A stretch of 28,775 nt of DNA from a virus. The first letter of the stretch is position 1; each line of letters starts with the position of its first letter. The translations under genes were made by a program, and so were the position numbers. Shown here piece by piece: positions 2,418 to 28,596 of this stretch. The stretch covers positions 1-28,775 of IMG/VR virus record IMGVR_UViG_3300010354_000441; one strand, written 5' to 3'. The notes under the pieces were generated by a model that saw only the letters and a program-made list of their open reading frames with translations, made no database searches and was not told the DNA's origin.

Positions 2418-4211
2418 TTAACTTATTCTTAGCCATAGAGATTGAGACCAGCCTGAAGATGGTATAAATCCCATTAATCTCCAAGTTCCTGATAGCCCAG
2501 TAGTATGTGCTCCTTGCCAAGCATCTCCATTACTACCATTAGGTTCATGATTTACACCGGCACTAGAGCCTTTCCATGTTCCGGCTGGGTATAAGTAACT
2601 TCCTGATAGTGTAATACCGGGTGTTTGAGCACCGGAAAATATAGTAGTATATGTAGGCGTATAGTATTCATAATATGCACCTGTTTCTGGATCAGTACCT
2701 GATATTAGTGTTTGACCAGTAAGTATTTGATAACTAGTACCGCAGTACATATATGTTCCGACTGCTCCTGCTGTTGTACTTGGTGTTGAAACATAATTTG
2801 TGTAGTTTCCACTATCAAGAATTACATAATTACCGCCTCTACTCCACCCGCCCGTACGTAGTTGATTATCAGTTCCAAGACCAAGATTAATTGCCCATGA
2901 ACCAGGTCTATGAAAACTCATCATTGCAGCACCGCCACCTTGACCGCGTACTTGTGGCCCGCCTTGGCCGCCATAGTCAATATTAGCGCCTGATACTGAG
3001 TACCCTAAACTTGATTGAGTTGATTCAAGATTTCCTGCACTATTTGCATAATTTACACTAAAATTTGATGGATTATATACATAATGATTGGATCCATCAT
3101 TACCGCCCCATAACCAATTTGGTTGACCATTCTGGCCGCTCCAATTAAAGGTCATTGCTGTACCGTTGCCACCGCCTTGCGAAAGTGTTGATGCTTTTGT
3201 AGCTAGTGTAGCATTTGTAGCATTTGTAGCATTTGTAGCATTTGTAGCATTTGTAGCATTTGTAGCAGTTCCAACTGTTAAACTACTAGCATTAACCCAA
3301 CTAGGCGCGCTGGTGCCGTTACTTTGTAATAACTGACCAGCACTGCCAGCAACTGTTGTAGTTAAGGTCGTACTACTACTTCCATAAGTTACACCACCTT
3401 GCGTAAATGCTCCAGTATTACCAGTACCACCGTAGTTATAGGCTATAGCATTACCATTCCATGTAGAACCAGTACTTAAAGTTTTACTAGTTAATGTTTG
3501 AGCTCCTGATATAGTTACTATTTCTACGCCATTAGCCTGTACTGTGCCGGCACCTTTAGACAGAAGATTTAAACTTACAAGAGCTTGATCTCCTTGAGCA
3601 CTTATTGCTACAGCATTACCACCAGTACTATTTGCTATTCTAATATAGTTTATAGCACTAGCAACACTATCAAACTCTAATATTTCGTTTCCATTTGGAT
3701 CCGCTATAAAACCTAAATCAGCAAATCTAGGGGCGGTTAAAGTTTTATTAGTTAGAGTGTCTGTTGTAGCCCTACCAACTAGAGTATCTGTACTAGTTGG
3801 TAGAGTTATTGTTCCAGTATTTGAAATTTGGCTAATCGTTGGCGAAGTAAGAGTTTTATTTGTTAGCGTTTGAGTAGCTGTTGTAGTAACTACAGCTGCA
3901 CCTCCCACTGTTGCTGAATTAAGTGTAGCGGCACCGGTAGTACTTAAAGTAGTAAATGCTCCGGTAGTTGGAGTTGTAGCCCCAACTGTTCCATTTATAT
4001 TTATTGTATAAGATGCAGCTAAGTCTGCCCAAGTAGTACCATTCCAAATTTTCCAGCGAAGAGCACTACTATCCCAACGAACAGCATTCGTTGGGATATT
4101 AGTTACAGATGCTACATCAAACATTCTAGCCATATCGTCTAGGCGAGCATCTAGTTCTGTTACAAAATTACTATAAGTACTTGTAACTGTAGGTAAATTA
4201 TGATCGGCCAT
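2418..4211 (-). CDS. Tail fibre / receptor-binding protein with tandem NAT repeat
   Basis: The 597-residue protein starts with a short adaptor region (residues 1-70, including ARMFDVAS and VRWDSSALRWKIWNGTTWADLA). It then has fibre-shaft repeats of the type TQTLTNKTLTSPT (about 112-125), TDTLTNKTLTAP (about 148-160) and AQTLTSKTLSTG (about 236-247), common in phage side fibres. Residues about 316-334 are Asn-Ala-Thr repeats from a perfect 9-bp tandem array. After about 345 the sequence is rich in G, N, W and Y (GQNGQPNWLWGGNDGSNHY), like fibre receptor domains. The end (SGTWRLMGF ... SLWLRIS) is the compact tip seen in many fibres. It lies between the tip protein and a fibre-assembly chaperone. 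The host receptor cannot be read from sequence. Confidence 0.8.
   Translation of the reverse strand: MADHNLPTVTSTYSNFVTELDARLDDMARMFDVASVTNIPTNAVRWDSSALRWKIWNGTTWADLAASYTININGTVGATTPTTGAFTTLSTTGAATLNSATVGGAAVVTTTATQTLTNKTLTSPTISQISNTGTITLPTSTDTLVGRATTDTLTNKTLTAPRFADLGFIADPNGNEILEFDSVASAINYIRIANSTGGNAVAISAQGDQALVSLNLLSKGAGTVQANGVEIVTISGAQTLTSKTLSTGSTWNGNAIAYNYGGTGNTGAFTQGGVTYGSSSTTLTTTVAGSAGQLLQSNGTSAPSWVNASSLTVGTATNATNATNATNATNATNATLATKASTLSQGGGNGTAMTFNWSGQNGQPNWLWGGNDGSNHYVYNPSNFSVNYANSAGNLESTQSSLGYSVSGANIDYGGQGGPQVRGQGGGAAMMSFHRPGSWAINLGLGTDNQLRTGGWSRGGNYVILDSGNYTNYVSTPSTTAGAVGTYMYCGTSYQILTGQTLISGTDPETGAYYEYYTPTYTTIFSGAQTPGITLSGSYLYPAGTWKGSSAGVNHEPNGSNGDAWQGAHTTGLSGTWRLMGFIPSSGWSQSLWLRIS
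3211..3264 (-). repeat. Six perfect 9-bp tandem repeats in fibre gene
   Basis: The plus-strand unit GCATTTGTA is repeated six times with no mismatch; in the minus-strand gene each unit encodes Asn-Ala-Thr. The flanks hold degenerate copies (GTAGCTAGT on one side, GCAGTTCCA on the other). As the unit is three codons, gain or loss keeps the frame and changes only shaft length. Confidence 0.95.
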
Positions 4212-9371: not shown

Positions 9372-10940
9372 TTACTCACCACCACCATCACCGCCAGCAT
9401 TGCTACTATCCCAAGTATTATCTGTTATTGGTTGTAGGGGCGGAGGCATTACTTCTGTTTGAGCAACAATTTGTATTGTATTACTGTATTCAGGACCAGT
9501 AGGATCGCCATTTGCATCTATTGGTTGATAGGTATAATCAAAAACTGCTTGAGCAGCTGTAATATCTCCGCTGCCGTCACCACGTACTTTTACAACCCTT
9601 AAACCTTCTGGAAAATGCAGCCCTATTTTTAATTTATCAGATACTTGATCTAATATTATTGTATGTTCATTTAATAACACACTAGCATTAGTTTCGCCAT
9701 CAGCTTCTTCACTGCCGGCTTTTATATTTTGTAGTAAGACTGGATTACCAGTAACATACTGTTTTGTATCTGATTTATATATTTGATCAGTTTTGGAAAA
9801 GTTATCACCAGCACTGCCCGTATAAGTTTGTATGCTAGTAGTGCTATCAAAGCCTGTAAAATCATTTATAGATTTAGTGCCTATTTGAATATCTTCTACC
9901 AACAGGGGTCCAAAGCCCCAAGCAACTAAGCTATTTAGTCTGCTCTTGTTGGCATCTTCAAATTCTACTATTTGTTGTGCACCTAGTGGCGGAGTATATC
10001 TAATTTTTCCTAGTACTACTGGTATGGGGGCATAAGGCGTTGCCTGATTACTGCCGCCATTAAATAAATTAGCTGAAACTGGTTGGCCTGGATCGCTTGT
10101 TTTGGGTGTAACTACGGGGGCTATAGCATTAATTAGTGCCATGCCTGCTATATTTACAAGCATTGTTCCAGCTGCCGCATATCCTGCAGTAGCAGTAGTA
10201 ACAGTAACTCCTGTTACAGCACTTTGAATTTGTGCACCAACCGTGGGTCCCAAGTACAACGCGGACACAACAACTAGTGCAAGTAGTAAAAAGTTTCGAC
10301 TACTGCTACCTTTTACTAGACTGCGAAACTCTATTTTATCACCAGAATTAATTTTTCTAAGTGCAAAGTCTTTTTCTGGTATAAGGTCGCCATTAATAAA
10401 TACTAAACACTCTGTGTTAGTTTCGGTATAAATTGCGTACTTAGTTTTGATCTTATCAACTATTTCTTGAACAGTAGTAGTTTCAAGTATTTGTTCGCTA
10501 AATTGCTCACGTTTTAGTGGATGGGATAAACCTGTTAGTAGTGCATCGAACGATTCTTTGTACCTAAAAAATCCAGCAATTCTGCGGTTCCACTCCGCAC
10601 TATTTAATTTTTGAATAACTACTTGATCTACGCCTTCCATAGCGTGTATAAAGTAGTTAGCACCAACATATAAACCTAGGTGGCTTTCGTGACCAAGTAC
10701 TTTAAACAGTATAACATCACCGGGCTCTGGAGATTCTACCCGGTACCAGTTTTCTTTTTGCTGAGCTATAGTCTCCTGAATACCTAGGGTTACACCAGAT
10801 TCGTAGTATTCGCTAAAACTTGGCAGTTGAGTACCATACTGCTCGTTATAGATTAGACGAACTAATCCCCAGCAATCCACCCCGGTGCTGTCTCTGCCCT
10901 TATCTTTATAGGGTATGCCTACATATTTATTGTACCACAT
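9372..10940 (-). CDS. NlpC/P60 peptidase (K) + gpI-like + J N-terminal domain fusion
   Basis: This 522-residue protein joins three lambda tail-tip functions. Residues 1-130 are an NlpC/P60 cysteine peptidase like gpK: Cys23 in VDCWGLVRLIYN, His87 in HESHLGLYVG and a third polar position near His99, so the enzyme looks intact. Residues about 145-210 resemble the beta-grasp, ubiquitin-like part of gpI (TTVQEIVDKIKTKY ... FINGDLIPEKDF ... INSGDKIEF), followed by two hydrophobic segments (217-235, 253-276). Residues about 285-522 match the start of J proteins (ATPYAPIPVVLGKIRYTPP ... LVAWGFGPLLVEDIQIG) and end in a glycine-rich tail. In lambda K, I and J are separate genes. Its start overlaps the upstream stop by one base (TAATG); the J body follows after 31 bases. 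The peptidase probably helps the tip pass the cell wall or mature. Confidence 0.85.
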   Translation of the reverse strand: MWYNKYVGIPYKDKGRDSTGVDCWGLVRLIYNEQYGTQLPSFSEYYESGVTLGIQETIAQQKENWYRVESPEPGDVILFKVLGHESHLGLYVGANYFIHAMEGVDQVVIQKLNSAEWNRRIAGFFRYKESFDALLTGLSHPLKREQFSEQILETTTVQEIVDKIKTKYAIYTETNTECLVFINGDLIPEKDFALRKINSGDKIEFRSLVKGSSSRNFLLLALVVVSALYLGPTVGAQIQSAVTGVTVTTATAGYAAAGTMLVNIAGMALINAIAPVVTPKTSDPGQPVSANLFNGGSNQATPYAPIPVVLGKIRYTPPLGAQQIVEFEDANKSRLNSLVAWGFGPLLVEDIQIGTKSINDFTGFDSTTSIQTYTGSAGDNFSKTDQIYKSDTKQYVTGNPVLLQNIKAGSEEADGETNASVLLNEHTIILDQVSDKLKIGLHFPEGLRVVKVRGDGSGDITAAQAVFDYTYQPIDANGDPTGPEYSNTIQIVAQTEVMPPPLQPITDNTWDSSNAGGDGGGE

Positions 10941-16671: not shown

Positions 16672-16700
16672 ATTGTAACACAAAGGCATAGTTTTGTCAA
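16672..16700 (-). promoter_or_regulatory. Sigma-70 promoter for tape measure unit
   Basis: On the minus strand TTGACA (16700-16695) and TACAAT (16677-16672) are separated by 17 bases, the same boxes and spacing as the promoter at 1934. Transcription would begin near 16665, about 30 bases before ATG 16636. It lies just downstream of the terminator at 16718-16752. Confidence 0.8.
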
Positions 16701-25157: not shown

Positions 25158-26471
25158 TTATCTAGTAAACGAGTAAAGACAATACCGTAAGGCATCCATA
25201 AGGTGTGAGTACTTGTCATGCTTAGGTTTTTCACGAGTTAGTCCCTCGCGATCGTCCCACTTGTACTGATTAAGTGCTTCGATAGTTTTGGTGCAACCCG
25301 GATCTACTAGTAATTTACCTTGATCTACTAGTGTTTGCACATATGCAATGCCTGGTAAGACATCTTTACGAGCACGCACAGTGGGAATATCGTACTGGTA
25401 GGCAAGGTCTTGGGCAAACTGTGCTGCTGCCGAATCTATAAAGATCAGCTCGATGCCAAACTCCTCGGCTAGTGCACGAATTTGCTGGGCATGCTGGGCA
25501 GTAGTTTGTTCAGCAGCCTCGTACTCACGCACAACCCAGAACCTGTCCCTACCCGCATCCTCAACATCCGGCAGGTATGCTACCACTACGAAGGCTGTGG
25601 GATCGCGGTAGCCGGGGTCGCAGCCAGCTAAGAACTGTGTACTACCATCCTCGGCCAACTTGGAGTCCCACGCTTGAATGGATTCGTCCCGTAACTCATA
25701 AATCTGACCCTCAAATGTAGTGAATGAGGCAAGGTATTCCTGCTCAAACTCCTGCTTTGACATCGACCGGCGGGCTTCCTCAATGTCTTTTAAACTCATA
25801 CGGGGATTTTCCTCGTAGTCTGCCCAGAGGGAGCACCATTCAGGAAAGTCTGGTGAGAAACCACGATCCCAGAACCTGCTAAACCAGTTCTGCTTGCCGC
25901 GGGGGGTGCTAATAAATATAGCTTTAGCGTCTACACGATCTAGTGTGGGTCGGAGCTGTACATTAAACGCCTCCTCGCCGCCGTCGCCTAGAGCCGCCTC
26001 GTCGAAAAGGATTAGCTGGTACGAGCGTCCAACGGTGGAATCCACGGTGCTCAGTGAACCCATACGCACGGTCGAACCGTTTGACAACTCAATTACACGA
26101 TCTTTTAGGTTGTCGCGTTCTACCTCCAGTTCAAAGTGCTTGATAAACTTGCGTTGTAGTTCAAAACTAATGCTGGACAAGTTGTAGTTGGGAGAGATGA
26201 CCAAGACATTGCAGCCGGGCACTAGTGAAACCAGCTGGGCAATTATGTTGGCTATGTAGGTTTTACCTAAACGTCGGGCTAGGGCTGCTACCACAAAACG
26301 GTAACGTGGATTGTTGATGGCATTGATTAGTGCCAGTTGCGCACTATTTAGCTGAGACCATGCTCCTACCAGCTTAAGATAATTTTCAACCGGCAGTTTG
26401 ATAAATCGGCTTTCTAGTGGAAATTCCTGCAGGTGTTCCCACTCTACATCACTACGGGAGACTTTAAGCAA
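25158..26471 (-). CDS. terL: Terminase large subunit
   Basis: The 437-residue protein has both halves of the packaging motor. The ATPase half shows a Walker A at about 65-71 (ARRLGKT), a Walker B with catalytic acid at 153-158 (LILFDE) and the coupling motif STP (188-190). The C-terminal RNase-H-like nuclease shows Asp285 in AGCDPGYRDP, Asp346 in LIFIDSAAAQ and Asp426 in HLMDALRY. The length is standard and no key residue is missing. It drives DNA into the prohead and cuts the concatemer. It overlaps terS by 8 bases; the HNH and portal genes follow after a 102-base gap that holds two divergent promoters. Confidence 0.96.
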   Translation of the reverse strand: MLKVSRSDVEWEHLQEFPLESRFIKLPVENYLKLVGAWSQLNSAQLALINAINNPRYRFVVAALARRLGKTYIANIIAQLVSLVPGCNVLVISPNYNLSSISFELQRKFIKHFELEVERDNLKDRVIELSNGSTVRMGSLSTVDSTVGRSYQLILFDEAALGDGGEEAFNVQLRPTLDRVDAKAIFISTPRGKQNWFSRFWDRGFSPDFPEWCSLWADYEENPRMSLKDIEEARRSMSKQEFEQEYLASFTTFEGQIYELRDESIQAWDSKLAEDGSTQFLAGCDPGYRDPTAFVVVAYLPDVEDAGRDRFWVVREYEAAEQTTAQHAQQIRALAEEFGIELIFIDSAAAQFAQDLAYQYDIPTVRARKDVLPGIAYVQTLVDQGKLLVDPGCTKTIEALNQYKWDDREGLTREKPKHDKYSHLMDALRYCLYSFTR

Positions 26472-26931: not shown

Positions 26932-26954
26932 GGGTGGTTCCAGTAATTTTTATA

Positions 26955-26983
26955 AGTGTAGCACATGGGCAGGGGTTTGTCAA
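26955..26983 (-). promoter_or_regulatory. Sigma-70 promoter for terS-terL
   Basis: On the minus strand TTGACA (26983-26978) and TACACT (26960-26955) are separated by 17 bases, with the -10 box 23 bases before ATG 26931. It belongs to the same class as the promoters at 1934 and 16700. Confidence 0.75.
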
Positions 26984-27013
26984 CGCCAAAATTTTTGTTT
27001 GGTAAAAATACTT

Positions 27014-27036
27014 GGGTGGGCCGCGTGTGGGTGGGC
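27014..27036. repeat. Direct repeat GGGTGGGC x2 upstream of terS
   Basis: GGGTGGGC occurs at 27014-27021 and 27029-27036, a 15-base period, in a GC-rich island (CCGCGTGT between the copies) set in AT-rich sequence upstream of terS. The place suits a packaging or cohesive-end site with small-terminase binding sites, but nothing in the sequence proves it. Confidence 0.35.
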
Positions 27037-27051
27037 GCTACGAAATCTACT

Positions 27052-27081
27052 ATTATACAGTCAAAAAACCGCCCCTGTCAA
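27052..27081 (-). promoter_or_regulatory. Leftward promoter of module A (distal promoter for terS)
   Basis: On the minus strand TTGACA (27081-27076) and TATAAT (27057-27052) are separated by 18 bases. It lies about 98 bases upstream of the terS promoter and faces the late genes. Equivalents with the same spacing occur in modules B and C. Confidence 0.65.
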
Positions 27082-27092
27082 GTACCCTGCAT

Positions 27093-27140
27093 CATTGTAT
27101 TTTTTAATGGGCTTGGCGTGGCCCATTAAAAAATACAATG
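27093..27140. repeat. Large palindrome, module A
   Basis: Perfect 20-bp arms, CATTGTATTTTTTAATGGGC and its complement, around an 8-base loop (TTGGCGTG). It lies between the leftward and rightward promoters. The T run comes before and the A run after the GC part on either strand, so it is not laid out as an intrinsic terminator. A protein-binding or cruciform site is more likely. Confidence 0.85.
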
Positions 27141-27144
27141 GGCT

Positions 27145-27188
27145 ACCACCACAATTTTAGTTGCAATTTTTTGGTGGTGCTGTATAAT
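27145..27188 (+). promoter_or_regulatory. Rightward promoter with straddling inverted repeat, module A
   Basis: TTGCAA (27161-27166) and TATAAT (27183-27188) are 16 bases apart. The inverted repeat ACCACC (27145-27150) / GGTGGT (27173-27178) spans the -35 box, an operator-like arrangement. It drives the genes at 27223 and 27363. Confidence 0.7.
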
Positions 27189-27222
27189 TCTTTACATGGA
27201 CAAACAACACGGAGCAAGCGAA

Positions 27223-27360
27223 ATGAACGAATACCTGTACCGGATGAACGAGGATGAGATCGAACTGTATCACCTCGACATGGAGCGTAGCTACGAAGAT
27301 CCTAGCTATGAACTCGATAGCATCAACGCCGAACTTCAACAGCTTGCACAAGGGGAATAA
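27223..27360 (+). CDS. Small acidic protein, unknown (45 aa)
   Basis: This 45-residue protein (MNEYLYRMNEDEIELYHLD ... ELQQLAQGE) is strongly acidic, helical and has no cysteine or membrane segment. Start: ATG 27223 has GGAG 8 bases upstream. An in-frame ATG at 27196 exists, but it lies almost on the predicted transcript start, and the matching stretch in module B reads as a conserved 5' leader. The next gene begins 2 bases after its stop, and the end of this gene supplies that gene's ribosome site (AAGGGGAA). Small acidic early proteins in phages often bind host proteins, but no function can be assigned here. Confidence 0.7.
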   Translation: MNEYLYRMNEDEIELYHLDMERSYEDPSYELDSINAELQQLAQGE

Positions 27361-27362
27361 AC

Positions 27363-27638
27363 ATGGATCAAGTTATCACCTGCCCGATCGAAGCCGCTTA
27401 CCAGCGTATGCGTGCTAAACAGCGTGCCAAGGATGAAGCATATAGCCGCTGGATCAGGGAGCAGGAAGCTGCCCGGATCGCGACGCTTGATCGCGATGCC
27501 CTGCGCGCTGAACTCTCACAGCTTCAGGCTCGGCTCGATCCCGAGTATGCGATGAGCGATGACTACACGTTCTGGTGCAAGCAGCGAGATATGCGCTCCA
27601 GGATTGCCACGATCGAGCGCGATCTGGCAGCAGCATAA
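27363..27638 (+). CDS. Small helical protein, unknown (91 aa)
   Basis: This 91-residue protein is rich in A, R, E, Q and D and almost wholly helical by eye. An N-terminal basic helix (AAYQRMRAKQRAKDEAYSRW, residues 11-30) is followed by a coiled-coil-like pattern (LDRDALRAELSQLQARLDP) and a C-terminal helix (MRSRIATIERDLAAA). Two isolated cysteines (8 and 72) do not make a metal site. The ribosome site AGGGGA lies in the last codons of the upstream gene, 2 bases away, so the pair is co-translated. Base composition is more GC-rich than in the tail genes. No family is recognised. Confidence 0.75.
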   Translation: MDQVITCPIEAAYQRMRAKQRAKDEAYSRWIREQEAARIATLDRDALRAELSQLQARLDPEYAMSDDYTFWCKQRDMRSRIATIERDLAAA

Positions 27639-27645
27639 GCAAGAT

Positions 27646-27668
27646 GCCATGTTGCGGTGCAACATGGC
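27646..27668 (+). repeat. Hairpin at end of first small-gene pair
   Basis: Perfect 10-bp arms, GCCATGTTGC and GCAACATGGC, with loop GGT, 7 bases after the stop codon. No T run follows, so it may be a weak terminator or an mRNA 3' end stabiliser. A related hairpin sits at the same place in module C. Confidence 0.65.
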
Positions 27669-27674
27669 GGCGCC

Positions 27675-27695
27675 AAAATTATAGCATATAATTTT
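27675..27695. repeat. AT-rich palindrome overlapping leftward promoter, module B
   Basis: AAAATTATA and TATAATTTT around GCA. The left arm contains the -10 box of the leftward promoter (27683-27678). Module C has the matching CCAAATTTTAT/ATAAAATTTGG at 28281-28305. Confidence 0.7.
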
Positions 27696-27707
27696 TGCCC
27701 GTGTCAA
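27678..27707 (-). promoter_or_regulatory. Leftward promoter of module B (antisense to small genes)
   Basis: On the minus strand TTGACA (27707-27702) and TATAAT (27683-27678) are separated by 18 bases. It would transcribe back through the 91- and 45-residue genes in antisense. Confidence 0.55.
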
Positions 27708-27718
27708 GCCATTTCATC

Positions 27719-27764
27719 ATTGTATTTTTTAATCGGGTTGCCCTGGTCGATTAAAAAATACAAT
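27719..27764. repeat. Large palindrome, module B
   Basis: Perfect 17-bp arms, ATTGTATTTTTTAATCG and CGATTAAAAAATACAAT, around a 12-base loop. The outer 14 bases match module A exactly, while the inner part and loop differ but still pair, as if the structure is kept under selection. Confidence 0.85.
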
Positions 27765-27769
27765 AAGCC

Positions 27770-27813
27770 ACCACCACAATTTTAGTTGCGCTTTTCTGGT
27801 GGTCATGTATAAT
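27770..27813 (+). promoter_or_regulatory. Rightward promoter with straddling inverted repeat, module B
   Basis: TTGCGC (27786-27791) and TATAAT (27808-27813) are 16 bases apart. ACCACC (27770-27775) and GGTGGT (27798-27803) flank the -35 box with the same 22-base separation as in module A. It drives the genes at 27848 and 28056. The 5' leader after it is nearly identical to that of module A. Confidence 0.7.
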
Positions 27814-27847
27814 TCTCTACATGGACAACAAACACGGAGCAAACAAG

Positions 27848-28036
27848 ATGAGCGACTATCAAATCTGGATCGAAAAGCGCGCGGCTAAACTGGCTGAGTT
27901 TATGAAGGCTAACGACATGACGACGACGATGCTGGTCGAAGCGGTTGTCGAATTGTGCGCGCAGCAAGGCATTGATGCTGGCGATCGGGTCGAAGCCGAG
28001 ATGACCTACGCCGAATGGCGCAAGGAAGCAAAATAA
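27848..28036 (+). CDS. Small helical protein, unknown (62 aa)
   Basis: This 62-residue protein (MSDYQIWIEKRAAKLAEFMK ... MTYAEWRKEAK) is predicted to be all helix. The stretch LAEFMKANDMTTTMLVEAVV could pack as a helix-turn-helix or a small helical bundle, but no family is recognised. Start: ATG 27848 has GGAG 8 bases upstream. An in-frame ATG at 27821 would add 9 residues, but that stretch matches the 5' leader of module A and lies within bases of the predicted transcript start. It is the first gene of the module B pair; the next starts 19 bases after its stop. Confidence 0.7.
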   Translation: MSDYQIWIEKRAAKLAEFMKANDMTTTMLVEAVVELCAQQGIDAGDRVEAEMTYAEWRKEAK

Positions 28037-28055
28037 ATACTCTGGAGTAACTGAA

Positions 28056-28229
28056 ATGGAATACTTGGAACGTGCGGTTCGATACGCTGAGGCGCGTGGC
28101 GACGAAGCTCTTTTCGCTGAAATCTATGGTATGTTGCGTCAAGGTGGAAGCGTAGAGGATAGCGTCTGGGAAGCTTTGCGTTATATTTATAACGCATATG
28201 TGGCAGATATGCTGCTGGATTTTCAGTAA
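28056..28229 (+). CDS. Small protein, unknown (57 aa)
   Basis: This 57-residue frame (MEYLERAVRYAEARGDEALF ... NAYVADMLLDFQ) is mostly amphipathic helix with many A, E, Y and L and no cysteine. It has a clear ribosome site (GGAG 8 bases before the ATG), the same spacing as its neighbours, and codon use like theirs, so I take it as real although short. It forms a pair with the gene at 27848. A hairpin follows 11 bases after its stop. Function is unknown. Confidence 0.65.
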   Translation: MEYLERAVRYAEARGDEALFAEIYGMLRQGGSVEDSVWEALRYIYNAYVADMLLDFQ

Positions 28230-28240
28230 GCAAATGCCAT

Positions 28241-28272
28241 GCTGCGCTGCAACGGCTATGTTGCGGCGCAGC
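28241..28272 (+). repeat. Hairpin at end of second small-gene pair
   Basis: GCTGCGCTGCAA and TTGCGGCGCAGC pair over 12 bases with one G-U pair and an 8-base loop. No T run follows. It has the same place and role as the hairpin at 27646-27668 but a different sequence. Confidence 0.6.
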
Positions 28273-28280
28273 AACTGGCG

Positions 28281-28305
28281 CCAAATTTTATCATATAAAA
28301 TTTGG
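28281..28305. repeat. AT-rich palindrome overlapping leftward promoter, module C
   Basis: Perfect 11-bp arms, CCAAATTTTAT and ATAAAATTTGG, around CAT. It covers the -10 box of the leftward promoter and is preceded by GGCG, as in module B. Confidence 0.7.
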
Positions 28306-28314
28306 GCTTGTCAA
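28285..28314 (-). promoter_or_regulatory. Leftward promoter of module C (antisense to small genes)
   Basis: On the minus strand TTGACA (28314-28309) and TAAAAT (28290-28285) are separated by 18 bases. It faces back into the 57- and 62-residue genes. Confidence 0.5.
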
Positions 28315-28325
28315 GCATTTTCGTC

Positions 28326-28371
28326 ATTGTATTTTTTTATGGGCGTGTCCAAGTCAATTAAAAAATACAAT
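28326..28371. repeat. Large palindrome, module C (partly decayed)
   Basis: The outer 12 bases pair (ATTGTATTTTTT and AAAAAATACAAT) as in modules A and B, but the inner part no longer pairs well. The arm-to-arm span is the same 46 bases as in module B. Confidence 0.7.
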
Positions 28372-28378
28372 CACACCT

Positions 28379-28409
28379 GGCTTGCAAAATACTGGCAAGC
28401 CTGTATAAT
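28379..28409 (+). promoter_or_regulatory. Rightward promoter with a different inverted repeat, module C
   Basis: TTGCAA (28382-28387) and TATAAT (28404-28409) are 16 bases apart, as in A and B. The inverted repeat is GGCTTGC (28379-28385) / GCAAGCC (28395-28401) with a 9-base gap, unrelated to the ACCACC/GGTGGT of the other two. It drives the genes at 28441 and 28593. Confidence 0.65.
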
Positions 28410-28440
28410 CGTTTTTGTGGTAACCAATGAGGGCAACGAA

Positions 28441-28596
28441 ATGAAAACCTTCCATGTGTATTACAGGCTCGGAACTCGCAAGGGTATGATTACCCTTAAA
28501 GCCCTGAGCCACAAGGATGCGGAAGCTCGGGCTAAACTCTGGTACAATGACGCTTTCGTGCTTGCTGCTGTTGGTGAAAAGGGGTCAGAAGAATGA
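28441..28596 (+). CDS. Small protein, unknown (51 aa)
   Basis: This 51-residue protein (MKTFHVYYRLGTRKGMITLK ... AAVGEKGSEE) has a beta-beta-alpha look: two strands (residues 1-8 and 14-20), a helix (SHKDAEARAKLWY, 23-35) and a strand (DAFVLAAVG). Short phage proteins with this order are common and mostly uncharacterised. Start: ATG 28441 has GAGG about 10 bases upstream; an earlier ATG at 28427 is out of frame and closes after four codons. The stop overlaps the next start in an ATGA arrangement. Confidence 0.7.
   Translation: MKTFHVYYRLGTRKGMITLKALSHKDAEARAKLWYNDAFVLAAVGEKGSEE

Follow-up and report, generated by a model that had tools for sequence, protein, structure and literature searches.

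Intergenic cassettes beside the terminase genes of T5-like phages pair interchangeable palindromes with a backward consensus promoter

Mycobacteriophages carry start-associated sequences, in which a short ribosome-site motif is repeated upstream of small genes. In T4-like phages, promoter/stem-loop (PeSL) cassettes have been described (Arbiol 2010 and Comeau 2014, as cited in PMC4503421), and phages of Alphaproteobacteria carry sites for CtrA, a single regulator for which both binding and regulation were shown (PMC9437464). The injection stop signal of T5 comprises repeats, palindromes, and DnaA boxes, which are thought to form structures or to bind host components (PMC13250531). Here we describe a family of intergenic cassettes in a lineage of T5-like phages, recognized through three modules at positions 26,932-28,440 of a 28,775-base virus record (IMG/VR IMGVR_UViG_3300010354_000441; this whole stretch is hereafter the window). 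Read rightward, the order is the end of an upstream gene, a palindrome of variable sequence (P1), a GGCGCC box, a palindrome (P2) containing the extended -10 of a backward promoter, a middle slot (held by a 46-bp palindrome, P3, in the window and by other sites in relatives), a forward sigma70 promoter, a ribosome site, and the next gene. We see about an even chance that the family marks the boundaries of small co-directional transcription units beside the terminase genes, where host proteins and polymerase would form a block and transcription would restart in the forward direction.

As far as the account in PMC4503421 goes, the cassettes resemble T4 PeSLs in being intergenic and repeated, in joining the boundary of an upstream unit to a new promoter, and in their tie to the gain and loss of small genes. 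A forward promoter with a stem-loop at many intergenic places is present in the family, as is gene shuffling in one case (the window against a relative, G001). Unlike PeSLs, they belong to a T5-like phage (by its terminase, portal, and capsid) and not to a T4-like early promoter setting, and they add a backward consensus promoter and interchangeable palindromes of the protein-site kind. Because an intrinsic terminator is not a regular part of the cassette and the phage is not T4-like, we rejected the identification and do not call the cassette a PeSL. With the CtrA phages they share dense, localized host-regulator sites at phage promoters, in the relatives and not in the window itself; they differ in that several putative site types are accommodated in one cassette scheme. 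The terminal repeat and injection stop of T5 (AY543070, 9140-10149) likewise lies in a T5-like genome on the same side of the terminase, with non-coding palindromes and repeats, but T5 has one stop region whereas the cassettes stand at many junctions; nor are DnaA boxes, which with repeats mark the end of the T5 terminal repeat, enriched here. The likeness to mycobacteriophage start-associated sequences suggested in a preliminary description of the window is a loose one, and T4 PeSLs are nearer in function: the mycobacteriophage elements are also repeated motifs upstream of small genes, but they are not known to include an antisense promoter or an interchangeable operator slot. In the open-licence literature, we did not find a description of an antisense promoter combined with swappable site types in a T5-like pre-early zone.

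The three modules of the window and the genes between them are laid out as follows.

27052-27081, minus strand: leftward sigma70 promoter of copy 1, TTGACA-N18-TATAAT, facing the terminase small subunit
27094-27139: palindrome P3 of copy 1, 46 bp, near-perfect
27145-27178: inverted repeat ACCACCA...TGGTGGT over the rightward -35 of copy 1; copy 2 has the same by duplication
27161-27188, plus strand: rightward promoter of copy 1, TTGCAA-N16-TATAAT
27189-27222, plus strand: leader with GGAG, copy 1
27223-27360, plus strand: small gene with a Shine-Dalgarno-led start (open reading frame from 27196); 79% homologue in locus L006
27363-27638, plus strand: small gene, 91 residues, no confident family
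27646-27668: palindrome P1 of copy 2, GCCATGTTGC-GGT-GCAACATGGC, flush with GGCGCC
27669-27674: GGCGCC constant box of copy 2, coinciding with the predicted leftward start site
27675-27695: palindrome P2 of copy 2, AAAATTATA-GCA-TATAATTTT; its left arm is the leftward -10 and its loop supplies the extended -10 TG
27678-27707, minus strand: leftward (antisense) consensus promoter of copy 2, extended -10
27719-27764: palindrome P3 of copy 2
27786-27813, plus strand: rightward promoter of copy 2, TTGCGC-N16-TATAAT
27848-28036, plus strand: small gene (open reading frame of 71 residues from 27821); 83% in locus L005
28056-28229, plus strand: small gene, 57 residues, no confident family
28241-28272: palindrome P1 of copy 3, 13-bp arms with one T.G
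28277-28282: GGCGCC constant box of copy 3
28283-28305: palindrome P2 of copy 3, ATTTTA/TAAAAT type
28285-28314, minus strand: leftward (antisense) promoter of copy 3, TTGACA-N18-TAAAAT with TG
28326-28371: palindrome P3 of copy 3, centre imperfect
28382-28409, plus strand: rightward promoter of copy 3, TTGCAA-N16-TATAAT
28441-28596, plus strand: small gene that copy 3 would serve, 51 residues

The piece of this arrangement most widely kept among relatives, as judged by BLAST, is 27669-27708, comprising GGCGCC, the P2 palindrome, and TGTCAAG. The preliminary description had set the promoters around the CATTGTATTTTTT palindrome, which is confined to near relatives and is not the defining part; the widespread constant is the leftward promoter with its palindromic -10, by which further cassettes were recognized in relatives. 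Among viral contigs, the pattern GGCGCCN{1,3}ATTWTANCATAWAAT, which includes no -35 box and leaves both W positions free, matches the DNA of uncultured phages in at least 119 stretches, and TTGACA lies exactly 18 bases from the -10 in 104 of the 116 distinct copies so obtained. A separate scan that required TGTCAA found the N18 spacing kept in 30 of 35 copies while the offset from GGCGCC varied from 1 to 3. At the W positions of the P2 arms, 111 of 121 copies have A..T and 10 have T..A, with no non-complementary pair. As NCA was fixed in the search pattern, the extended -10 TG adds no independent support. The P2 pattern matches only three times across 257 Gb of prokaryote genomes, apparently by chance, and GenBank phages contain no full match to the 39-nucleotide element. 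The constant element is thus a predicted sigma70 promoter of this phage lineage, with the extended -10 (TGN) forming part of the palindrome. Exact searches for P3 in 22 relatives and a degenerate scan for it in viral contigs gave no match, and P3 is therefore local.

This promoter has an antisense placement. Both neighbours are rightward in about 93 of about 100 classifiable copies, and the distance from the leftward promoter to the end of the upstream gene has a median of 64 bases, with most copies 30-150 bases past the stop codons. With co-directional neighbours, the leftward promoter lacks a gene to drive and points into the upstream gene from its 3' side. For copies 2 and 3 and for the relatives, the earlier picture of jointly controlled divergent promoters therefore misleads.

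Within the window, TTGACA-N18-TAWAAT occurs exactly three times, always on the minus strand, and TTGCNN-N16-TATAAT exactly three times, always on the plus strand, with one copy of the 46-bp palindrome (ATTGTATTTTTT...AAAAAATACAAT) between the leftward and rightward promoters of each module. The motif sets are unique to these sites and follow the same order, in agreement with the single plan first described. A scan for sigma70-like sites returned 8 against 2.9 in shuffles; the leftward promoters score 12, 12, and 11 of 12, and those of copies 2 and 3 add the extended -10 TG. Other parts of the initial description held less evenly. The distance from leftward promoter to palindrome, put at about 16 bases, is in fact 12, 11, and 11, which does keep it within a base as claimed, but that from palindrome to rightward -35 is 21, 21, and 10. 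The inverted repeat across the -35 is present in copies 1 and 2, whereas copy 3 has unrelated arms (TTGC..GCAA) and, by eye, the repeat is not general in relatives; similarly, the GGAG leader stands in copies 1 and 2, while copy 3 has GAGGGCAACG. Copies 1 and 2 show 85% identity across 144 nucleotides and are evidently recent duplicates, so part of their agreement reflects shared ancestry. Copy 1 is the odd one: it occupies the divergent terminase junction, its leftward promoter points towards the terminase genes, and it lacks both GGCGCC and the -10 palindrome. By eye, its leftward hexamers are altered in G001 to TGGACA/TATAGA. In copies 2 and 3, the leftward promoters point backwards into rightward genes. 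The GC-rich palindromes beside these two copies (27646-27668 and 28241-28272) and the palindrome holding the leftward -10 had been absent from the preliminary description.

The second hallmark of the family is the interchangeability of P1, which adjoins GGCGCC, often flush, and varies in sequence between copies. Its dyad score has a median of 10 against 5 in shuffled sequence and reaches at least 9 in 67 of 95 copies against none shuffled. The P1 of the window, TGTTGC..GCAACA, belongs to a family present in many relatives. At syntenic gene junctions, the type of P1 site differs among relatives; thus, the junction after a dmp-like gene carries a Zur/parS-like dyad in G009 and G004 and a SlmA-like one in G001 and G015. 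We counted palindromes without bias over 2.0 Mb of DNA, from loci chosen by P2 or terminase and not by host-type sites. The most recurrent were P2 with its variants and a TAGGGG palindrome, which rank above the host-type sites. Also recurrent were GTTTCAC/GTGAAAC, GTTCCAC/GTGGAAC, AAGTGAG-2-CTCACTT, and TGAGAAT-1-ATTCTCA, the last of which we take to be the Fur box. The first is the core of chromosomal parS and the second its Pseudomonas form (PMC5450999), while the third equals the SlmA consensus AAGTAAGTGAGCGCTCACTTACGT (PMC12693692). Tallied as distinct contexts (near-identical ones removed) against the mean of 100 permuted half-sites, parS is found 21 times (0.02 permuted), its Pseudomonas type 9 times (0), the Fur box 11 times (0.01), the SlmA site 22 times (0.26), and GTTACA-N4-GTTACA 22 times (0.24). 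LexA, CRP, FNR, DnaA, and PhoB sites show no enrichment in the DNA examined. The canonical host-type sites of the relatives are confined to the terminase-side zone, at predicted phage promoters.

An apparently non-coding block in G009 (L034, 4642-4966), about 5.0-5.4 kb right of terS, contains three tandem SlmA-type sites, a Fur box, several sigma54-type promoters, and GTTACA-N4-GTTACA, with no obvious gene between the sites. A helix-turn-helix protein family with weak similarity to T5 D5-like regulators (L050, 10352-10678, with paralogues in L034) has several members per genome in the same zone as the palindromes, and its proteins are candidates for binding them.

The zone itself has a consistent position. 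Searched with T5 proteins (tblastn), the window gives E values of 1e-128 for terminase, 1e-85 for portal, 1e-44 for prohead protease, and 1e-23 for capsid, and its large terminase (25158-26471, minus strand) is 47-49% identical to those of T5-like phages of Vibrio, Salmonella, and Serratia. Structural genes run leftward and small genes rightward from 27196; the latter have no confident family in Pfam or PHROGs, and no DNA similar to the three-copy region was found among GenBank phages. In the viral contigs searched, the terminase is carried by 29 loci, part of them in records of 97-104 kb, and each of the 20 contigs that were tested among those carrying P2 encodes a terminase related to that of the window, with 57-75% identity. 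Mapped P2 elements lie about 1.5-9 kb beyond the terminase in a single orientation, and in four records of 98-104 kb (G009, the near-identical G006, G015, and G019) all recognized motifs are at most 6.5 kb from terS. The T5 terminal repeat, which holds dmp, A1, and A2, starts about 3 kb past the terminase genes. A homologue of T5 A1 adjoins terS in a distant relative (G022), and a dmp-like gene is present in seven records, inside the terS-side zone wherever mapped. Because the terS synteny and the A1 and dmp-like homologues recall the T5 terminal repeat, the cassette zone is probably the counterpart of the pre-early, first-entering DNA of T5. Two further observations concern this region of the relatives: the terminase of G025 (the record of L104; 94286-95611) has two in-frame TAG codons, possibly from amber recoding or sequence errors, and the small-gene zone of L050 encodes a PQ-loop (SWEET-like) membrane protein at 9722-9988.

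That the cassettes are repeated units controlling pairs of tiny genes, as first proposed, gains support from the further copies in many relatives and from G001, which at the homologous place lacks one gene pair and one module. In G001, one module stands before the 71-residue gene, whereas in the window a pair of modules brackets two additional genes; the left part of the G001 module matches copy 1 of the window and its right part matches copies 1 and 2. Recombination between modules would produce such a difference, with change in either direction, and in this one case the shared cassette sequence may have served as the joint for gain or loss of gene pairs.

The sequences themselves show the anatomy of the cassette, the constant backward promoter and its antisense placement, the dyad symmetry, the restriction to one zone, and the interchange of P1; from these we infer that P1 and P2 are protein sites at the DNA level. 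In the reading that we prefer, RNA polymerase held at P2, together with a protein on P1 by the predicted start site, would keep transcription of the upstream operon from running through; the same pair would gate the backward promoter, and the forward promoter would restart transcription beyond the block. The P1 and middle slots of relatives often carry canonical host-type sites (parS for ParB, a Fur box, a SlmA site, or sigma54 promoters), at which host proteins would supply the block, and the block could then depend on host state. The cassette is best read as a putative PeSL-like combination of insulator and promoter, made from DNA-protein sites. A bolder and more doubtful proposal, which we advance only tentatively, is that a virulent lineage builds swappable cassettes of ParB, SlmA, Fur, and sigma54 sites and sets them, along with a backward consensus promoter, at the boundaries of units in its first-entering DNA, where their occupancy by host proteins gates early transcription or DNA entry. 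If so, a single small zone with swappable sites would let these phages sense or exploit a wide range of host proteins. The cassettes would further offer a handle on class switching in T5-like early transcription and on the stop and restart of DNA entry, and would constitute a modular joint for small-gene exchange like the T4 PeSLs, with protein sites replacing terminators.

Several observations weigh against these proposals. None of the named host sites occurs within the window, the P1 and P3 of which match no regulator that we could name, and about one-third of P1 sites fit none of the site classes used. The parS, Fur, and SlmA assignments are consensus matches, and the host may lack SlmA or a given ParB. 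Sigma54-type promoters number 31 distinct contexts against a permuted mean of 1.7, yet one permutation reached 24. The first-entering identity of the zone is based on synteny and only two homologues. Antisense transcription from so strong a promoter may itself be the function, in place of a blocked polymerase. Finally, the palindrome arms extend symmetrically past the protein cores, which is compatible with RNA hairpins.

This last point bears on the least improbable of the alternatives, itself unlikely, by which P1, P2, and P3 would be RNA hairpins that, like those of T4 PeSLs, end rightward mRNAs or stabilize their 3' termini, with the backward promoter incidental. The three palindromes all give strong RNA folds (the single-strand folding z-scores of P3 copies 1 to 3 are -7.7, -5.5, and -4.3), and the location after stop codons is as expected of such hairpins. 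However, simple scans find no intrinsic terminator before copies 2 and 3 of the window and a rightward one near the module in only 31 of 113 copies. Moreover, the TTGACA at exact N18 has no hairpin role, P3 lies upstream of both promoters, and the parS, Fur, and SlmA cores are exact. The types of palindrome mismatch show no G.U strand bias, in a small number of cases, which fits DNA sites. A search of Rfam gave only sub-threshold matches to eukaryotic microRNAs, for one palindrome.

Next in plausibility, and again unlikely, the backward promoters could genuinely produce antisense RNA and thereby shut down each pre-early operon at a later stage of infection. A near-consensus promoter set nearly always against the upstream gene, in the late-gene direction, speaks for such a role; on the other hand, P1 directly downstream and the leftward terminators (30 of 113 copies against 15 of 111 in the control) would shorten the transcripts in part of the family. 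We consider it quite unlikely that the sites are decoys, titrating ParB, SlmA, Fur, or sigma54 polymerase and so disturbing host division, iron control, or transcription. The tandem block of G009, with its clustered SlmA-type, Fur, and sigma54-type sites, speaks for this, but cassettes number only about 6 per genome and sites some 20, and the sites are placed precisely next to promoters, as titration would not require. Still less probable is a role in two-step DNA entry, in which the palindromes with host proteins bound to them would pause or stop the incoming DNA, as the injection stop signal does in T5. That signal has a like composition (PMC13250531), and the zone adjoins terS and A1 or dmp-like genes in relatives; against this stand the occurrence of cassettes at many gene junctions, always in a set arrangement of promoters, in place of a single site, and the unenriched DnaA boxes. 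That the cassette is a functionless palindromic repeat, selfish or mobile, is suggested by the many similar-armed copies in one genome but is highly improbable given that the copies are nearly always intergenic, in one orientation and one zone, with fixed promoter geometry and coordinated arm changes.

The window contains two other repeats. Leftward TTGACA-N17 promoters with TTACAAT/TACACT -10 boxes lie at 1906-1934, 16672-16700, and 26955-26983 (minus strand), within a 43-nucleotide direct repeat, and are likely a late-gene promoter family. At 3188-3279, a 9-base tandem repeat in a structural gene encodes an Ala-Thr-Asn run.

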